Source: an uncultured Selenomonadales bacterium (GTDB lineage: Bacteria; Bacillota; Negativicutes; Selenomonadales; Selenomonadaceae). Taken from it: DNA of 48,595 nucleotides. Location of the stretch: NCBI GenBank assembly GCA_946536825.1, contig CAMNEX010000003.1:1-48595 (forward strand), in the 5' to 3' direction. Below, piece after piece: positions 17,785 to 33,155 of the stretch (position 1 is its first letter; each line of letters starts with the position of its first letter). The notes under the pieces are model-generated. The model worked only from the letters and a program-made list of their open reading frames with translations, did not search any database and was not told the DNA's origin. The translations under genes and the position numbers were made by a program.

Positions 17785-17889
17785 AAAAAATTCCTCCCAA
17801 ATTTAATTTTTAGGCAGTTTATCCGTTTTGCTGTTGACCGTCAAGCAAAGACAAGATATTATGCTTTAAATCATTTTGGAGGCGGTAAT

Positions 17890-19704
17890 GTGAAATTTTT
17901 TATAACAGGCAACGATTCAATCAAAGCGGGGCTTGATTTAACATTTATTGTGCCCGCCGATTCGGTTGTAAGTGTTTTCGCCGACAAGGAACAAACCTTG
18001 CGGCAGAGTTATTCAATCGCGAAAAATATTTTTCAACTCGTCGGCAAGGGCGAAATAAATTTCGTTCTTATCGGGCTGATGCCCGACAGTTTATTTCGCG
18101 ACGAGGACGGCAATCTGACGGCGGACGCTTTCAAAGAAAATTTGCAGGTATTGAACGATTATATAAAACTTTGTATCGAAAACGGCGCACAACCTGTCGG
18201 CTTAATTTTACCGGTTGCTCCGTCCATTCGCGAACATTACAGGGAAAATTTTTTGAATCCGCTTTTGAATATTCTCGGCAAGTTTGAAAGCACTTACAAT
18301 TTCAAGCTCTTAAATCTTTTTGCTATCGAGATGCATGAAATAGGCTTTTCCGACAAGACGCACTTAAAAGAAGACGGCGCGAGATTAGTCAGCATTCTTT
18401 TGACGCTGAATTTATTTGCAAAGAAAATTTTATCCATAACAGATTTTTGCAACATGAATTACAATTATTTTAATGGGCTCGCTTACATAACGGAAAAAAA
18501 TTTTTTTCATGCTCTCATGGAGCAAATTTTTTCTTACAGCGTTAAAAAGATTCGCAACAAGAAAAAAATTAAACTCGCATTCGTCACGGATCACGCGGCG
18601 ACGTGGTGCGGCGATAAACTTTACAATCTTTTCGCGAAAAACGACCGCTTCGAGACAACGGTATTTTTATGTTGCGGATATGAATCCACCTTGGAAGATA
18701 GCCGCCATGACTTGGAACAATTTAAAAACGCCGGGATAAATGCTGTCGGCGTTTTCGATTTGCAGGAAGAAACTCCGCCTCAAGACGTTATATTTTTCTT
18801 GAGACCGTACACTGTTAATTTATCAAAAAGTTTTCAATTCGATGTGCTGACGCCTCAAACACTTGTGCTTCACATTCCTTACGGCATTAAGATGATAACT
18901 GCAGATAACTACCTCAATCTCCCGATTATGCGCATTGCTTGGAAAAATTTTTTCGAGTCAATAAACTCGCTTAAATTTCACGACGAAAAGTGCAATGTTG
19001 GCGTTCCACGCGGCTTAGTCAGTGGTCAGCCGAAAATGGATTTCTTTTTTGAAGACACAAGCAAAGTTTCCTTCCCTTGGAAAATGACGCGCCCCGACGC
19101 AAAAAAAATTATCTGGGCTCCGCACCACGCATTTAACAAAAAAGTTCCCCGCGACGGTTATTCAACGTTTCCTTATAATTACAGATTTATGTACGAATTT
19201 GCCAAGGCGCACCCCGAAACTTCCTGGGTTGTCAAACCGCATCCCAGATTGATGCTTGAGGCTGTCGAATCCGGACTTTTTCCTTCGGTTGAGGCTTACG
19301 AAAATTATCTGCAACAATGGAACGATTTGCCCAATGCGCAGGTTTACAGCGGAGCTTATTATCAAGAAATCTTTGCAACTTCCGACGGCATGATTCACGA
19401 TTCCCTTTCCTTTATCGCCGAATATCAATACACGCATAAGCCCATGATTTATTTGATAGATGAAAAAGTTAGAACGGATTTAGTTGAACTCGGACAAAAA
19501 ATTTTGAAAGTCTCTTATGTCATTGACGGGAAAAATCTCGAACAAATAGCCTTTGCTCTTCAAAAACTTTTTATCGAGGGCAATGATCCGCTAAAAGACG
19601 CCCGACAAAAAGCTTTCGACGAAGAGTTAAATTATTATCAACTAAACGGCATGGACGCGAGCGACTTCATTTTCAAAAATATTTCTCAAGAATTGGGGCT
19701 TTGA
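17890..19704 (+). CDS. SGNH-like N-terminal domain fused to CDP-glycerol glycerophosphotransferase-like domain
   Basis: GTG start after GGAGG; SDKTHLKEDGARL (SGNH block V-like); C-terminal IIWAPHH, VVKPHPR, ATSDGMIHDSLSFIAEY, KPMIYL. Confidence 0.75.
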   Translation: MKFFITGNDSIKAGLDLTFIVPADSVVSVFADKEQTLRQSYSIAKNIFQLVGKGEINFVLIGLMPDSLFRDEDGNLTADAFKENLQVLNDYIKLCIENGAQPVGLILPVAPSIREHYRENFLNPLLNILGKFESTYNFKLLNLFAIEMHEIGFSDKTHLKEDGARLVSILLTLNLFAKKILSITDFCNMNYNYFNGLAYITEKNFFHALMEQIFSYSVKKIRNKKKIKLAFVTDHAATWCGDKLYNLFAKNDRFETTVFLCCGYESTLEDSRHDLEQFKNAGINAVGVFDLQEETPPQDVIFFLRPYTVNLSKSFQFDVLTPQTLVLHIPYGIKMITADNYLNLPIMRIAWKNFFESINSLKFHDEKCNVGVPRGLVSGQPKMDFFFEDTSKVSFPWKMTRPDAKKIIWAPHHAFNKKVPRDGYSTFPYNYRFMYEFAKAHPETSWVVKPHPRLMLEAVESGLFPSVEAYENYLQQWNDLPNAQVYSGAYYQEIFATSDGMIHDSLSFIAEYQYTHKPMIYLIDEKVRTDLVELGQKILKVSYVIDGKNLEQIAFALQKLFIEGNDPLKDARQKAFDEELNYYQLNGMDASDFIFKNISQELGL

Positions 19705-19721
19705 CGACGGAGGAATCAGTC

Positions 19722-20459
19722 ATGGAAAATCATTGGCAAGAACTTTGGAATAACAGGAAAATTAATTTTGAAGAACTGACCGAACAGGACGAGCAGCGAC
19801 TGATTTTGGAATTGAAACGGATTGTCGGCTGGGATTTTCAAGGAAAAAGTTTTTCGGTGGCGACAGAGGAGTTTAAAAAGGAATACAAATATCTTCGGGA
19901 AAATTTGCAACTGAATGAAAGTTCAATGGGGAGTATTTTTGAAGTCGGTTGCGGAAGCGGCGCGAATCTTTATTTTTTCAAAAAAGATGGCTTCCGTGTC
20001 GGCGGTTTGGATTACGCGGAAAATTTGCTCGCCGTTGCCAAAAAAGTTGTCGGCGAAGAAAGTTTTATCGAATGCATTGTGGGCGAGGCGTCACAACTTC
20101 CCACGGAAATAAAATATGATTCAGTTTTTGCTGCTGGGGTTTTTTCGTATTTTACCGATTTGGATTACGTGGAAAAAGTTTTGGATAAAATGATTGCCAA
20201 GGCAAAACGGAGCGTCGGAATTTTGCGTATGCTCAACGCGGACACTAAGGAAGATTATTTGAAATATCGCAGGGAACACACGAAAAATTACGACGAACTT
20301 TATAAAAATTTGCCGAAGCTCTTTATCTCGAAGAAATTTTTTGAAGAATACGCCGCAAAAAATGATTTGGAAGTAAAATTCTCGCGGCACCACATGGAAG
20401 GCTTTTGGAATGAGCCGTTTAATTTTGATTGTTTTCTTTATAAAAAAAATCGCAGGTGA
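19722..20459 (+). CDS. Class I SAM-dependent methyltransferase
   Basis: IFEVGCGSGANLYFFKKDGFRVGGLDYAENLL; CGGAGGA RBS before ATG 19722. Confidence 0.85.
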   Translation: MENHWQELWNNRKINFEELTEQDEQRLILELKRIVGWDFQGKSFSVATEEFKKEYKYLRENLQLNESSMGSIFEVGCGSGANLYFFKKDGFRVGGLDYAENLLAVAKKVVGEESFIECIVGEASQLPTEIKYDSVFAAGVFSYFTDLDYVEKVLDKMIAKAKRSVGILRMLNADTKEDYLKYRREHTKNYDELYKNLPKLFISKKFFEEYAAKNDLEVKFSRHHMEGFWNEPFNFDCFLYKKNRR

Positions 20460-20463
20460 TTCA

Positions 20464-21060
20464 ATGAAAAAATTTGTTTTCGATTTGGACGGCACGATAA
20501 CAAAAATCGAGACACTGCCTTTGCTTGCCGGCGAACTCGGTTTAAAGGAAGAAATGAAACTTTTGACGGACTTAACCTTGAGCGGGAAAATTCCCTTCGC
20601 GAATTCTTTTAAGCTCCGCTATCTGGTCTTGAGAAATATTCCGCTGAAAAAAATTCAAGATGTCATGGCGTCCGTTGAACTTGACGAGGAAATTGCCGCG
20701 TTCATAAAGGAACATAAAAAAAATTGTGCCGTCGTGACAGGCAACCTTGATTGCTGGATTGAGCCGCTAACAGCGAAACTCGGTTGCGAAAGTTTTTCCT
20801 CGACAAGCGAACTTGACGAAAATAATGTTCCTGTCTTAAAAAAAATTCTGGACAAGGGCGAAGCTGTTCGCGAGTTGAAAAAGACTTGCGACAAAGTCAT
20901 TGCTGTCGGCGAGAGTTTTAACGATGTGCCGATGTTTGAAGAATCGGACGTTGCGATAGCTTACGGCGGCGTTCACAAGCCCGTGAGCACGGCGATTTCC
21001 ATTTCAAATTATGTCGTTTTTGACGGAGGTGCTTTATGTCGGTTGTTAAAAATGTTGTGA
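20464..21060 (+). CDS. HAD-superfamily (SerB-like) phosphatase
   Basis: MKKFVFDLDGTITKIETLPLL, VVTGN, VGESFNDVPMFEESDVAIAYG. Confidence 0.85.
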   Translation: MKKFVFDLDGTITKIETLPLLAGELGLKEEMKLLTDLTLSGKIPFANSFKLRYLVLRNIPLKKIQDVMASVELDEEIAAFIKEHKKNCAVVTGNLDCWIEPLTAKLGCESFSSTSELDENNVPVLKKILDKGEAVRELKKTCDKVIAVGESFNDVPMFEESDVAIAYGGVHKPVSTAISISNYVVFDGGALCRLLKML

Positions 21061-21707
21061 TTGCCGCCGCCGGTACGGGAACACGTTTGGGCATGGGCAA
21101 GCCGAAATGTTTGATAAAAGTAAACGGCAAAAGCATTCTGGAATATCAGCTTGAATTGCTAAAGGACGTTGAGAATGTTTTTTTGATTGTCGGCTTTTGC
21201 GAAGAAGAAGTTATGGATTTTGCCGGCGAACTCCGCAAGGATATTATTTTTGTGCGGAACGCCAATTTCAGTCGCACCAAAACTTTGGGAAGTTTTTATT
21301 TGGCGGCGAAAATTATTGACGGCTCGGCAATTTTTATGGATGGCGATATGATAATCAAGCCGCAAGCCTTTGACGAATTTTTAACGACTGCCGCGCAAAG
21401 CAACGCGGGCGAATTTCTTATTGCGGTTTCGGAAAGAATTTCGGACGATCCTGTTTATTGCAAAGTTGTTCCCGCGGGCGACAAATTGACAATTCACGGC
21501 TTTTCCTACGAGGAGAAAACCGCTTACGAGTGGGCTAACGTGGTTTTTATGCCCGCCGATAAAATGAGCGGCGGCAACACCCATACTTTTGAGCATCTGA
21601 AAAAATTTCTTCCTGCCGAGGCAAAAATTATTGACCGCCTCGAAATAGATACGCCGGAAGATTTAGCTTATGCGGAGAAATTTCTTCAGTCGGAAAATTG
21701 GTTTTGA
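21036..21707 (+). CDS. Sugar-phosphate/choline-phosphate nucleotidyltransferase-like (LicC-like NTP transferase)
   Basis: VVIAAAGTGTRLGMGKPKCLIKVNGKSILEYQLELL, FMDGDMII; overlaps upstream HAD by 25 nt. Confidence 0.85.
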   Translation: MSVVKNVVIAAAGTGTRLGMGKPKCLIKVNGKSILEYQLELLKDVENVFLIVGFCEEEVMDFAGELRKDIIFVRNANFSRTKTLGSFYLAAKIIDGSAIFMDGDMIIKPQAFDEFLTTAAQSNAGEFLIAVSERISDDPVYCKVVPAGDKLTIHGFSYEEKTAYEWANVVFMPADKMSGGNTHTFEHLKKFLPAEAKIIDRLEIDTPEDLAYAEKFLQSENWF

Positions 21708-21741: not shown

Positions 21742-22158
21742 ATGGAAAAAACTTTGGTGTTAATCAAGCCGGACGCCTTCGGCAAAAATCACGCGGGCGA
21801 TATTCTCAAGCTTTACGAAGACGCGGGCTTTAAAATTATCGCGGCTAAGGTTATGAAGATGACGGCGGAGCTTGCCGCAAAACATTACGTCGAACATATC
21901 GGACGACCGTATTATCCCGCGCTGGTTGAGTTCATGACAAGTGCTCCGATTATGGCTTTGGTGCTCGGCGGCGACAACGTTATAAAAAAAGTTCGCGAGA
22001 TTAACGGCGCGACTAATCCTGCCGAGGCGGCGGAAGGAACAATTCGCAAACTCTACGCCGAGGATAAAACTAAAAATGCCGTTCACGCCTCCGACAGCGA
22101 AAAAAGCGCGGCGCGGGAAATTCCGATTTTCTTCAGCGCGTGTGAAATTTTCGATTAA
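21742..22158 (+). CDS. ndk: Nucleoside-diphosphate kinase
   Basis: KTLVLIKPDAFGKN, REINGATNPAEAAEGTIRKLYA, NAVHASDS. Confidence 0.95.
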   Translation: MEKTLVLIKPDAFGKNHAGDILKLYEDAGFKIIAAKVMKMTAELAAKHYVEHIGRPYYPALVEFMTSAPIMALVLGGDNVIKKVREINGATNPAEAAEGTIRKLYAEDKTKNAVHASDSEKSAAREIPIFFSACEIFD

Positions 22159-31583: not shown

Positions 31584-33155
31584 ATGTTCAAAATTCTCGC
31601 CGCCGACGGCATTGCCAACGAAGGTATCGAATTGCTTAGAAAAAATTTCAGCGTCGAAATTCGCGACAAAATTTCTCACGAAGAACTCTTGGAGATTATT
31701 CCGCAATTCGACGCGCTGATTGTCCGCTCCGCCTCCAAAGTTACGGCAGACGTTTTGGAGCGCGGCAGAAATTTAAAAATAATCGGGCGTGCGGGCGTCG
31801 GCGTTGACAATATCGACGTGCAGGCGGCGACGGAGCGCGGAATTATCGTTATTAATTCGCCCGACGGAAATACTATCGCCGCAACCGAACATACTTTTGC
31901 AATGATGCTCGCCGTCAGCCGCAACATTCCGCAGGCAAGCGGTTCAATGCACGTCGGGAAATGGGACAGGAAAAAATTTATCGGCGTGGAGTTGAGAAAT
32001 AAAACTTTGGGCGTTATCGGGCTCGGCAGAATCGGCGCGGGCGTCGCTAAACGCGCTCAATCCTTCGACATGAACGTTATCGCTTACGATCCTTTCGTCA
32101 GCGAAGAACGCGCAAAAAATTTGGGCGTGCGCTTGGTTGAGCTCGACGAACTTTTTAAAATCGCCGATTTTATAACCGTGCACATGCCCTTGACGAATAA
32201 GACAAAGGATATGATTTCGCTCGCGCAGATTAAAACAATGAAACCGACGGTTCGTTTGATTAATTGTGCTCGCGGCGGCATTATCAACGAAAACGATTTG
32301 GCGACTGCGCTCAAGGAAAATTTAATCGCGGGCGCGGCTATCGACGTTTTTGAAAATGAACCGCTCGCTGAAGATTCTCCGCTTAGAAATTTGCCCAATA
32401 TAATTTTAACGCCGCATTTGGGAGCCTCGACCGTCGAAGCGCAAATTGGCGTTTCGGTTGACGTTGCCAAGGGAATTATCGACGCGCTGAACAATCGCCC
32501 CGTCGCGACCGCAGTCAATCTTCCGCATATTCCGAGTCATATTTTGGAGAAACTCGCGCCTTTCCTTGACCTTGCCGAACGCCTCGGCAGGACGATTACC
32601 GGCATGAGCAAAGAGCCGATTTCAAGTGTGCAAGTCAAAGTCAACGGCAAAATTTCCGAGACGAATTCAAGCTTGATTTCAACCGCCGTCCTGAAAGGTA
32701 TGCTGACTGCCGCGCTTGATACCAACGTCAATCTCGTCAACGCAAACATTTTGGCAGCGGAGCGAGGAATTCATCTTTCCGAAATTAAATCGAACATTGC
32801 CCGCGACTTTGCTAATCTCGTGACGGTCTCCGCCAATGGAAATATCGTCACGGGAACTCTTTTCGGCAATGAAGGGCGAATCGTTTCGATAAATAATTTC
32901 CGCGTCGACGTTGATCCACACGCCCGAATTTTGATTTGCCCGCATATAAATCGCCCCGGCGTTATCGGACTTGTCGGAACGCTCCTTGCCGAGCACGGAA
33001 TTAATATTTCCGGAATGCAGGTCGGCAAAACCGCCATTGAAGGTACAAGCCTCATGGTTTTGACGATTGACAATCCGCTTACACAAGATGTTCTCGCCGA
33101 AATGAAAGCTCTTGACCCAATTTTCGACGTGACGCCCGTTTCCTACGATTTTTAA
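31584..33155 (+). CDS. serA: D-3-phosphoglycerate dehydrogenase
   Basis: GRAGVGVDNIDVQAATERGIIVINSPDGNTIAATEHTFAMML, GLGRIGAGVAKRA, C-terminal ACT domain. Confidence 0.95.
   Translation: MFKILAADGIANEGIELLRKNFSVEIRDKISHEELLEIIPQFDALIVRSASKVTADVLERGRNLKIIGRAGVGVDNIDVQAATERGIIVINSPDGNTIAATEHTFAMMLAVSRNIPQASGSMHVGKWDRKKFIGVELRNKTLGVIGLGRIGAGVAKRAQSFDMNVIAYDPFVSEERAKNLGVRLVELDELFKIADFITVHMPLTNKTKDMISLAQIKTMKPTVRLINCARGGIINENDLATALKENLIAGAAIDVFENEPLAEDSPLRNLPNIILTPHLGASTVEAQIGVSVDVAKGIIDALNNRPVATAVNLPHIPSHILEKLAPFLDLAERLGRTITGMSKEPISSVQVKVNGKISETNSSLISTAVLKGMLTAALDTNVNLVNANILAAERGIHLSEIKSNIARDFANLVTVSANGNIVTGTLFGNEGRIVSINNFRVDVDPHARILICPHINRPGVIGLVGTLLAEHGINISGMQVGKTAIEGTSLMVLTIDNPLTQDVLAEMKALDPIFDVTPVSYDF

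Follow-up and report, generated by a model that had tools for sequence, protein, structure and literature searches.

A candidate surface phospho-decoration module of rumen Selenomonadaceae and the poly-G tracts of its relatives

Described systems and the locus

Phosphocholine, ethanolamine, glycerol and aminoethylphosphonate groups attached to the bacterial surface as phosphodiesters influence recognition by phages and hosts. Contingency loci, whose usual gene classes are glycosyltransferases, LicD, methyltransferases, RTX-like proteins and restriction-modification genes, are best known from pathogens. The subject here is a four-gene cassette in a stretch of 48,595 nucleotides (contig CAMNEX010000003.1, 'the window') from an uncultured rumen Selenomonadaceae bacterium (assembly of 1.76 Mb, ~72% complete). 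Its genes encode an SGNH-TagF-like transferase (gene 1; family SGNH-GT), an S-adenosylmethionine (SAM) methyltransferase (MT), a HAD-family protein (HAD) and a nucleotidyltransferase (NT). The comparison set held 66 genomes of the same genus, and the carriers of the block are the window genome (G000), G018, G006, G024 and G007. We put at about even chances the reading of the cassette as an interchangeable module of a surface-decoration system in rumen Selenomonadaceae, by which a CTP-activated methylated amine would be moved to a surface glycan. The gene set, its co-travel, the predicted fold of gene 1, the active-site motifs, the alternative modules, the tracts and their reading frames were read from sequence, and from them we infer substrate and acceptor.

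The closest described enzymes are LicC and PntC, which serve surface tailoring with phosphocholine and 2-aminoethylphosphonate (PMC6697681). The cassette shares with these systems the NT fold family, the motif GXG(T/S)R-x4-8-PK with its catalytic Lys, the DxD motif and the link to surface decoration; however, it is without LicA, LicB, LicD and PepM, and its transferase is TagF-like, not LicD. A complete lic pathway was rejected, as a profile scan found no licA kinase, licB transporter or licD in the cassette; the window genome does encode a LicD, but at another locus (L101), where it neighbours a different SGNH-GT. A PepM-based phosphonate route was rejected because phosphoenolpyruvate (PEP) mutase is absent from the carriers: PF13714 had no match in G000, G006, G007, G018 and G024, and was above cut-off in 9/66 genomes of the genus. 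The methyl phosphoramidate (MeOPN) pathway of Campylobacter, which requires a glutamine kinase, a phosphoglutamine cytidylyltransferase and an amidohydrolase beside methyltransferases, was not recognised either: the profile scan found no kinase or hydrolase of this type among the cassette genes, though no homologue search of Cj1416-1418 was made. The original prediction did not recognise the combination as a named pathway and gave a match to a known complete pathway as one refuting condition; no such match was found.

Gene 1 resembles the CDP-glycerol glycerophosphotransferase TagF (PF04464) in its GT-B fold and its KPHP and D...E motif region, but is fused to an SGNH-fold domain whose triad is not conserved, occurs in multi-copy tandem arrays and is served by interchangeable donor modules. 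FrbH of FR-900098 biosynthesis is a fusion of an NT with a pyridoxal-phosphate (PLP) decarboxylase, a layout that a sister fusion of this genus, NT-CobD, appears to have as well; the latter, however, sits in surface-decoration loci, and the window NT is without a PLP domain. A MobA-like NT acting on an amino-phosphonate has been described (PMC6697681). CpgD, the phosphoglycerate cytidylyltransferase of a Caulobacter lipid headgroup pathway (PMC12275187), is similar in being a cytidylyltransferase of COG1213 type whose product is an unusual CDP donor used in phosphodiester decoration, but it serves lipid headgroups and no MT, HAD or racemase partners are known for it. Poly-G phase-variable loci are described in Campylobacter, Helicobacter and Neisseria (PMC6321876, PMC2823697). 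As in those genera, the present tracts lie inside open reading frames (ORFs) whose products modify glycans, and both on-frame and off-frame alleles occur, here seen between species alone; the host, by contrast, is a ruminant-gut genus of Selenomonadaceae (Negativicutes). Every part is of a known kind; in the literature searched, neither the gene combination nor the shared SGNH-TagF transferase nor poly-G switching in this group is described, and no report of poly-G phase variation in Selenomonadaceae or Negativicutes was found there.

Co-travel and predicted activities of the block

Orthologues of the NT (70-75% identity) are found in G018, G006, G024 and G007, each directly after the HAD; among ~85,000 species genomes, these four other carriers are metagenome-assembled Selenomonadaceae genomes from ruminant stomachs. 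The 25-nt HAD/NT overlap and the embedded GGAGGT are identical in all five carrier species (5/66 genomes), and the overlap is more than chance. The MT lies upstream of the HAD in the window, G018, G024 and G007. The block adjoins ndk in the window and in G018 and lies downstream of trmD in G006, G024 and G007; because the same block occupies two unrelated sites, the comparison indicates that it has moved as a unit. The original prediction had named genes that do not travel together as its other refuting condition, and in the neighbourhoods the genes co-travel. Its four same-strand genes with tight spacing were confirmed as well (gaps of 17 nt between gene 1 and MT and 4 nt between MT and HAD, then the 25-nt overlap), but the four genes here are five in the relatives: an Asp/Glu racemase lies between the transferase and the MT or HAD in 4/4 other carriers, with remnants in G052. 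The racemase was not found in the window copy or elsewhere in the window genome (~72% complete).

The NT is a MobA/LicC-like NTP transferase by Pfam and NCBIfam profiles. LicC and PntC are its best solved relatives (E of only 1e-8 to 1e-9 for the NT alone) and come first among full-length profile matches; weaker matches to sugar-1-phosphate nucleotidyltransferase models occur as well. The cytidylyltransferase motif with its catalytic Lys (PMC6697681) reads G13-T-G15-T-R17-x5-P23-K24, and is kept in five species together with D102-x-D104 and E203-x-D205; E186 is also listed among the motif residues. Near the amine, PntC has Glu104/Glu196 and LicC Asp105/Asp192 (PMC6697681). Asp102 of the NT stands at the position of LicC Asp105 and PntC Glu104, where the NT-CobD type has Glu; it is the single informative position on the substrate, LicC-like and unlike PntC. 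The predicted activity is probably the coupling of CTP to a small phosphorylated amine-type compound.

The MT belongs to the SAM methyltransferases by Pfam and NCBIfam profiles, and its matches among solved structures were generic class I ones alone. Its homologues precede the NT-CobD fusion or parts of it in G060, G001, G052, G046 and G018, and one lies inside a PepM/aminoethylphosphonate (AEP)-type cluster in G050; for this reason the MT probably acts on an amine of the aminoethyl phosphate or phosphonate type. The HAD is an HAD-IB of SerB type by the same profiles. Its E16, F45 and R52 are invariant, E16 and R52 across 21 sequences. These last two are the equivalents of Glu20 and Arg56 of MjPSP, which bind the serine amine and carboxylate in phosphoserine phosphatase (PMC6321591). 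The HAD is below the curated SerB model cut-off (69 bits vs 144), and no SerB above that cut-off was found in any of the 66 genomes. The 'dephosphorylated' product of the original prediction is not established, as the HAD keeps its serine-binding residues and also occurs apart from the other genes. Elsewhere in the genus, ndk forms one continuous ORF with an upstream HAD (G014, L088:1185-2219) or with an octopine-dehydrogenase-like gene (G063, L085:5749-7254), as a possible fusion or lost stop.

Gene 1 consists of an SGNH-like domain (~residues 1-180) and a GT-B domain (~residues 225-600). Searches against solved structures by phmmer and profiles gave no real match, and the fold was found with AlphaFold (pLDDT 89.7) and Foldseek. 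GT-B folds such as UDP-GlcNAc 2-epimerase head the Foldseek list, which includes TagF (3l7j, E 2e-8), other GT-B enzymes and TesA-type SGNH folds over ~200 aligned columns. PF04464 is sub-threshold in the window protein (E 0.029) and matches 20/21 members of the family (best E 3.6e-11). KPHP 449-452 and D504...E511 are nearly invariant among 53 members, in only one of which the SGNH triad S10+D155+H158 is jointly present. As the catalytic triad is not conserved, a hydrolase role for the N-terminal domain is improbable, and an active acyl-hydrolase was rejected. All four families named in the original prediction hold, qualified for gene 1 by the sub-threshold match and the unconserved triad.

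Activation modules and poly-G tracts

Full-length SGNH-GT proteins are nearly restricted to the genus (35/66 genomes at E<=1e-15, 43 at E<=1e-5, few relatives besides). They are multi-copy and form tandem arrays of as many as four or five genes (L095, L097, L180, L181); the paralogues in these arrays are ~45% identical to the window protein. The transferase is therefore no cassette-specific component but belongs to a genus family paired with several activation modules. A CTP-activation-type gene lies within the next five same-strand genes of 30/57 SGNH-GT genes vs 46/434 unlabelled ORFs of the same loci, a comparison that is partly circular as the marker set was drawn from those loci. The neighbouring modules include TagD-like with Asn-synthase-like genes, a TagD-Gfo/Idh fusion, IspD/TarI-like genes with or without LicD (among them contig C30 of the window genome), and an NT-CobD-like fusion with octopine-dehydrogenase-like and OCD genes. 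An SGNH-GT fragment adjoins a PepM-type cluster in G042, and a pairing with a PepM/AEP module is possible too. These neighbourhoods indicate that the transferase family pairs with interchangeable modules of predicted CTP activation. The pairing of a CDP-type activation enzyme with a polyol-phosphate-type transferase, a methyltransferase and a HAD had been foreseen in the original prediction. The second SGNH-GT of the window genome (L101, contig C30) is of a capped subtype, and downstream of it come LicD and a cytidylyltransferase of IspD-like type. In L085:7254-9080 and L116:7450-9279, a PntC-like cytidylyltransferase with Glu at the amine site is fused to a CobD-like PLP domain; octopine-dehydrogenase-like genes (plus OCD in L116) follow, a predicted donor pathway of the CDP-ethanolamine/opine type.

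The poly-G tracts of the relatives, invisible from the window alone and missing from the original prediction, are rated here as the most interesting feature. In six MT homologues, a G7-G12 run immediately precedes SAM motif I (FEVGCG); three of them, G024 (12), G007 (8) and G050 (9), are out of frame, and three, G039 (9), G046 (7) and G019 (8), are in frame. The window MT has GGGGAG there, in frame and below the slippable length (at least 7-8), and slippage is not expected; judging from this site, the window copy no longer has a switch of its own. Further tracts occur in the racemase (G024, G006), an octopine-dehydrogenase-like gene, NT-CobD units, a PepM-NT fusion and SGNH-GT. The genus loci examined, 849 kb in all, contain 18 G runs of at least 9, vs 0.06 expected from short-run extension. 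Module genes, 29% of this sequence, hold 13/18 of the runs, and an MT is likewise the site of the L086 tract. Across genomes, G10 windows number from 0 to 282. Tract ORFs taken one per genome, unselected for function, included glycosyltransferases, LicD, methyltransferases, the racemase of this cassette (G024), RTX-like proteins and an HpaII-type restriction-modification gene. The frames were compared between species with one assembly each, and sequencing error may account for runs at contig ends. By its tracts, the system of the relatives looks like a phase-variable decoration system. A putative phasome, with poly-G of 9-16, extends over many genomes of the genus (e.g. L096:6491 and 6832, L118:10467 and 12939, L138-L165), and most of its tracts lie in glycosyltransferase, LicD, methyltransferase, RTX-like and restriction-modification genes. 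In G006 (L093, 8612-9933), the MT is absent and the racemase is shortened beside a G11 tract, a possible tract-linked deletion.

Locus layout, rival readings and significance

The promoter-like site 27 nt upstream of gene 1 is the best plus-strand site of the region, where 17 sigma-70-like sites were found vs 7.9 expected, and as evidence it is weak on its own; its position suggests that the cassette is a single transcription unit. Outside the cassette, the window encodes an ADP-ribosylglycohydrolase family protein at 6823-7764.

Table 1. Features of the cassette and its flanks in the window
Feature	Position	Strand	Remark
Promoter-like site TTGACC-17-TATTAT	17834..17862	+	10/12 consensus matches
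Gene 1, SGNH-fold + TagF-like GT-B transferase	17890..19704	+	cap-less subtype; 604 aa; GTG start
Gene 2, class I SAM methyltransferase (MT)	19722..20459	+	intact; ATG start; GTG at 19719
GGGGAG directly 5' of SAM motif I in MT	19928..19933	+	
Gene 3, HAD-IB, phosphoserine-phosphatase-like	20464..21060	+	198 aa
GGAGGT, ribosome-binding-like site for gene 4	21025..21030	+	within gene 3 end
Gene 4, LicC/PntC-type NTP transferase (NT)	21036..21707	+	223 aa
ndk	21742..22158	+	flank outside cassette; downstream boundary of insertion site

In the proposed mechanism, the NT would use CTP to activate a small phosphorylated compound, either an amino-alcohol or one derived from an amino acid. The MT would methylate this compound either before its activation or afterwards, with nitrogen as the most likely site. 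For the HAD, the proposed substrate is phosphoserine or an intermediate of this pathway that resembles it. Gene 1 would, through its TagF-like domain, transfer the phospho-compound from its CDP carrier to a cell-surface glycan, while the SGNH-fold domain, probably inactive, perhaps positions the acceptor. In relatives, poly-G slippage would toggle the methylation and racemase steps. The original idea of a methylated, NDP-activated metabolite moved to a surface polymer is partly supported, by enzyme families and co-travel, whereas its substrate is what we infer. Several points weigh against the mechanism. The MT is not obligatory for the block, because G006 has no MT match; the racemase is better explained by an acidic amino acid than by ethanolamine or choline; no kinase for making the phosphorylated amine was found among the cassette genes; the window genome is only ~72% complete; the NT model is poor (pLDDT 62) and was left unused for pocket reading; and the catalytic specificities of the enzymes are only predicted, from motifs. 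The HAD occurs in ~24/66 genomes, often without an adjacent decoration gene, and could be an ordinary phosphoserine phosphatase.

This last point can be taken further, to a pathway of transferase, MT and NT alone with the HAD as the genome's ordinary phosphoserine phosphatase. The HAD is the sole SerB-like protein that a search of the window genome (~72% complete assembly) returned, keeps the phosphoserine residues, and in other species has murB or Uma2-like genes as neighbours. However, ~40/66 genomes are without a full-length SerB-like HAD, so the genus is not dependent on it; its 25-nt overlap with the NT is unchanged across five species and both loci, and it directly adjoins SGNH-GT in several species without the NT. 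We regard this reading as unlikely, and to the same degree one in which phosphoserine itself is activated: the racemase (in relatives) and the HAD would handle O-phosphoserine, the NT would form CDP-serine, the MT would methylate its amine and gene 1 would pass it to the glycan. The conserved phosphoserine-binding residues agree with this, as do the acidic-amino-acid-family racemase in 4/4 other carriers, the fusion of a sister NT module to a threonine-phosphate-decarboxylase-like (CobD) domain and a SerA-type D-3-phosphoglycerate dehydrogenase, the first step towards phosphoserine, ~10 kb downstream of the cassette (31584-33155). Yet a phosphatase in the pathway would drain the compound to be activated, the LicC-like Asp102 suggests an amine pocket and does not separate the candidate substrates, and we know of no described CDP-serine enzyme. 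Less probable still is a plain sugar-nucleotide branch, with an NDP-sugar made by the NT, methylated by the MT and transferred to lipopolysaccharide or capsule. The weak NT matches to sugar-1-phosphate models and the epimerase-like folds at the top of the Foldseek list point that way, but LicC and PntC rank first for the NT, TagF is matched and PF04464 is a family match of gene 1, and the neighbouring module genes are of polyol- and aminoalcohol-phosphate types rather than sugar pathways.

The wider picture, held somewhat more tentatively than the cassette reading, is a modular, phase-variable surface phospho-decoration in ruminant Selenomonadaceae. A lineage-specific SGNH-TagF fusion, often in tandem, would be loaded by interchangeable CDP/CMP modules of glycerol, ribitol, ethanolamine/opine and aminoethylphosphonate types, together with a new racemase-MT-HAD-NT module whose CDP donor would be an undescribed one; slippage in poly-G would toggle the chemical tailoring and not just the transferase. 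If true, the swapping of donor modules behind one transferase family together with poly-G slippage would extend contingency-locus biology to rumen commensals, and the genus would offer a natural series of cytidylyltransferases for discovering new CDP-activated compounds.

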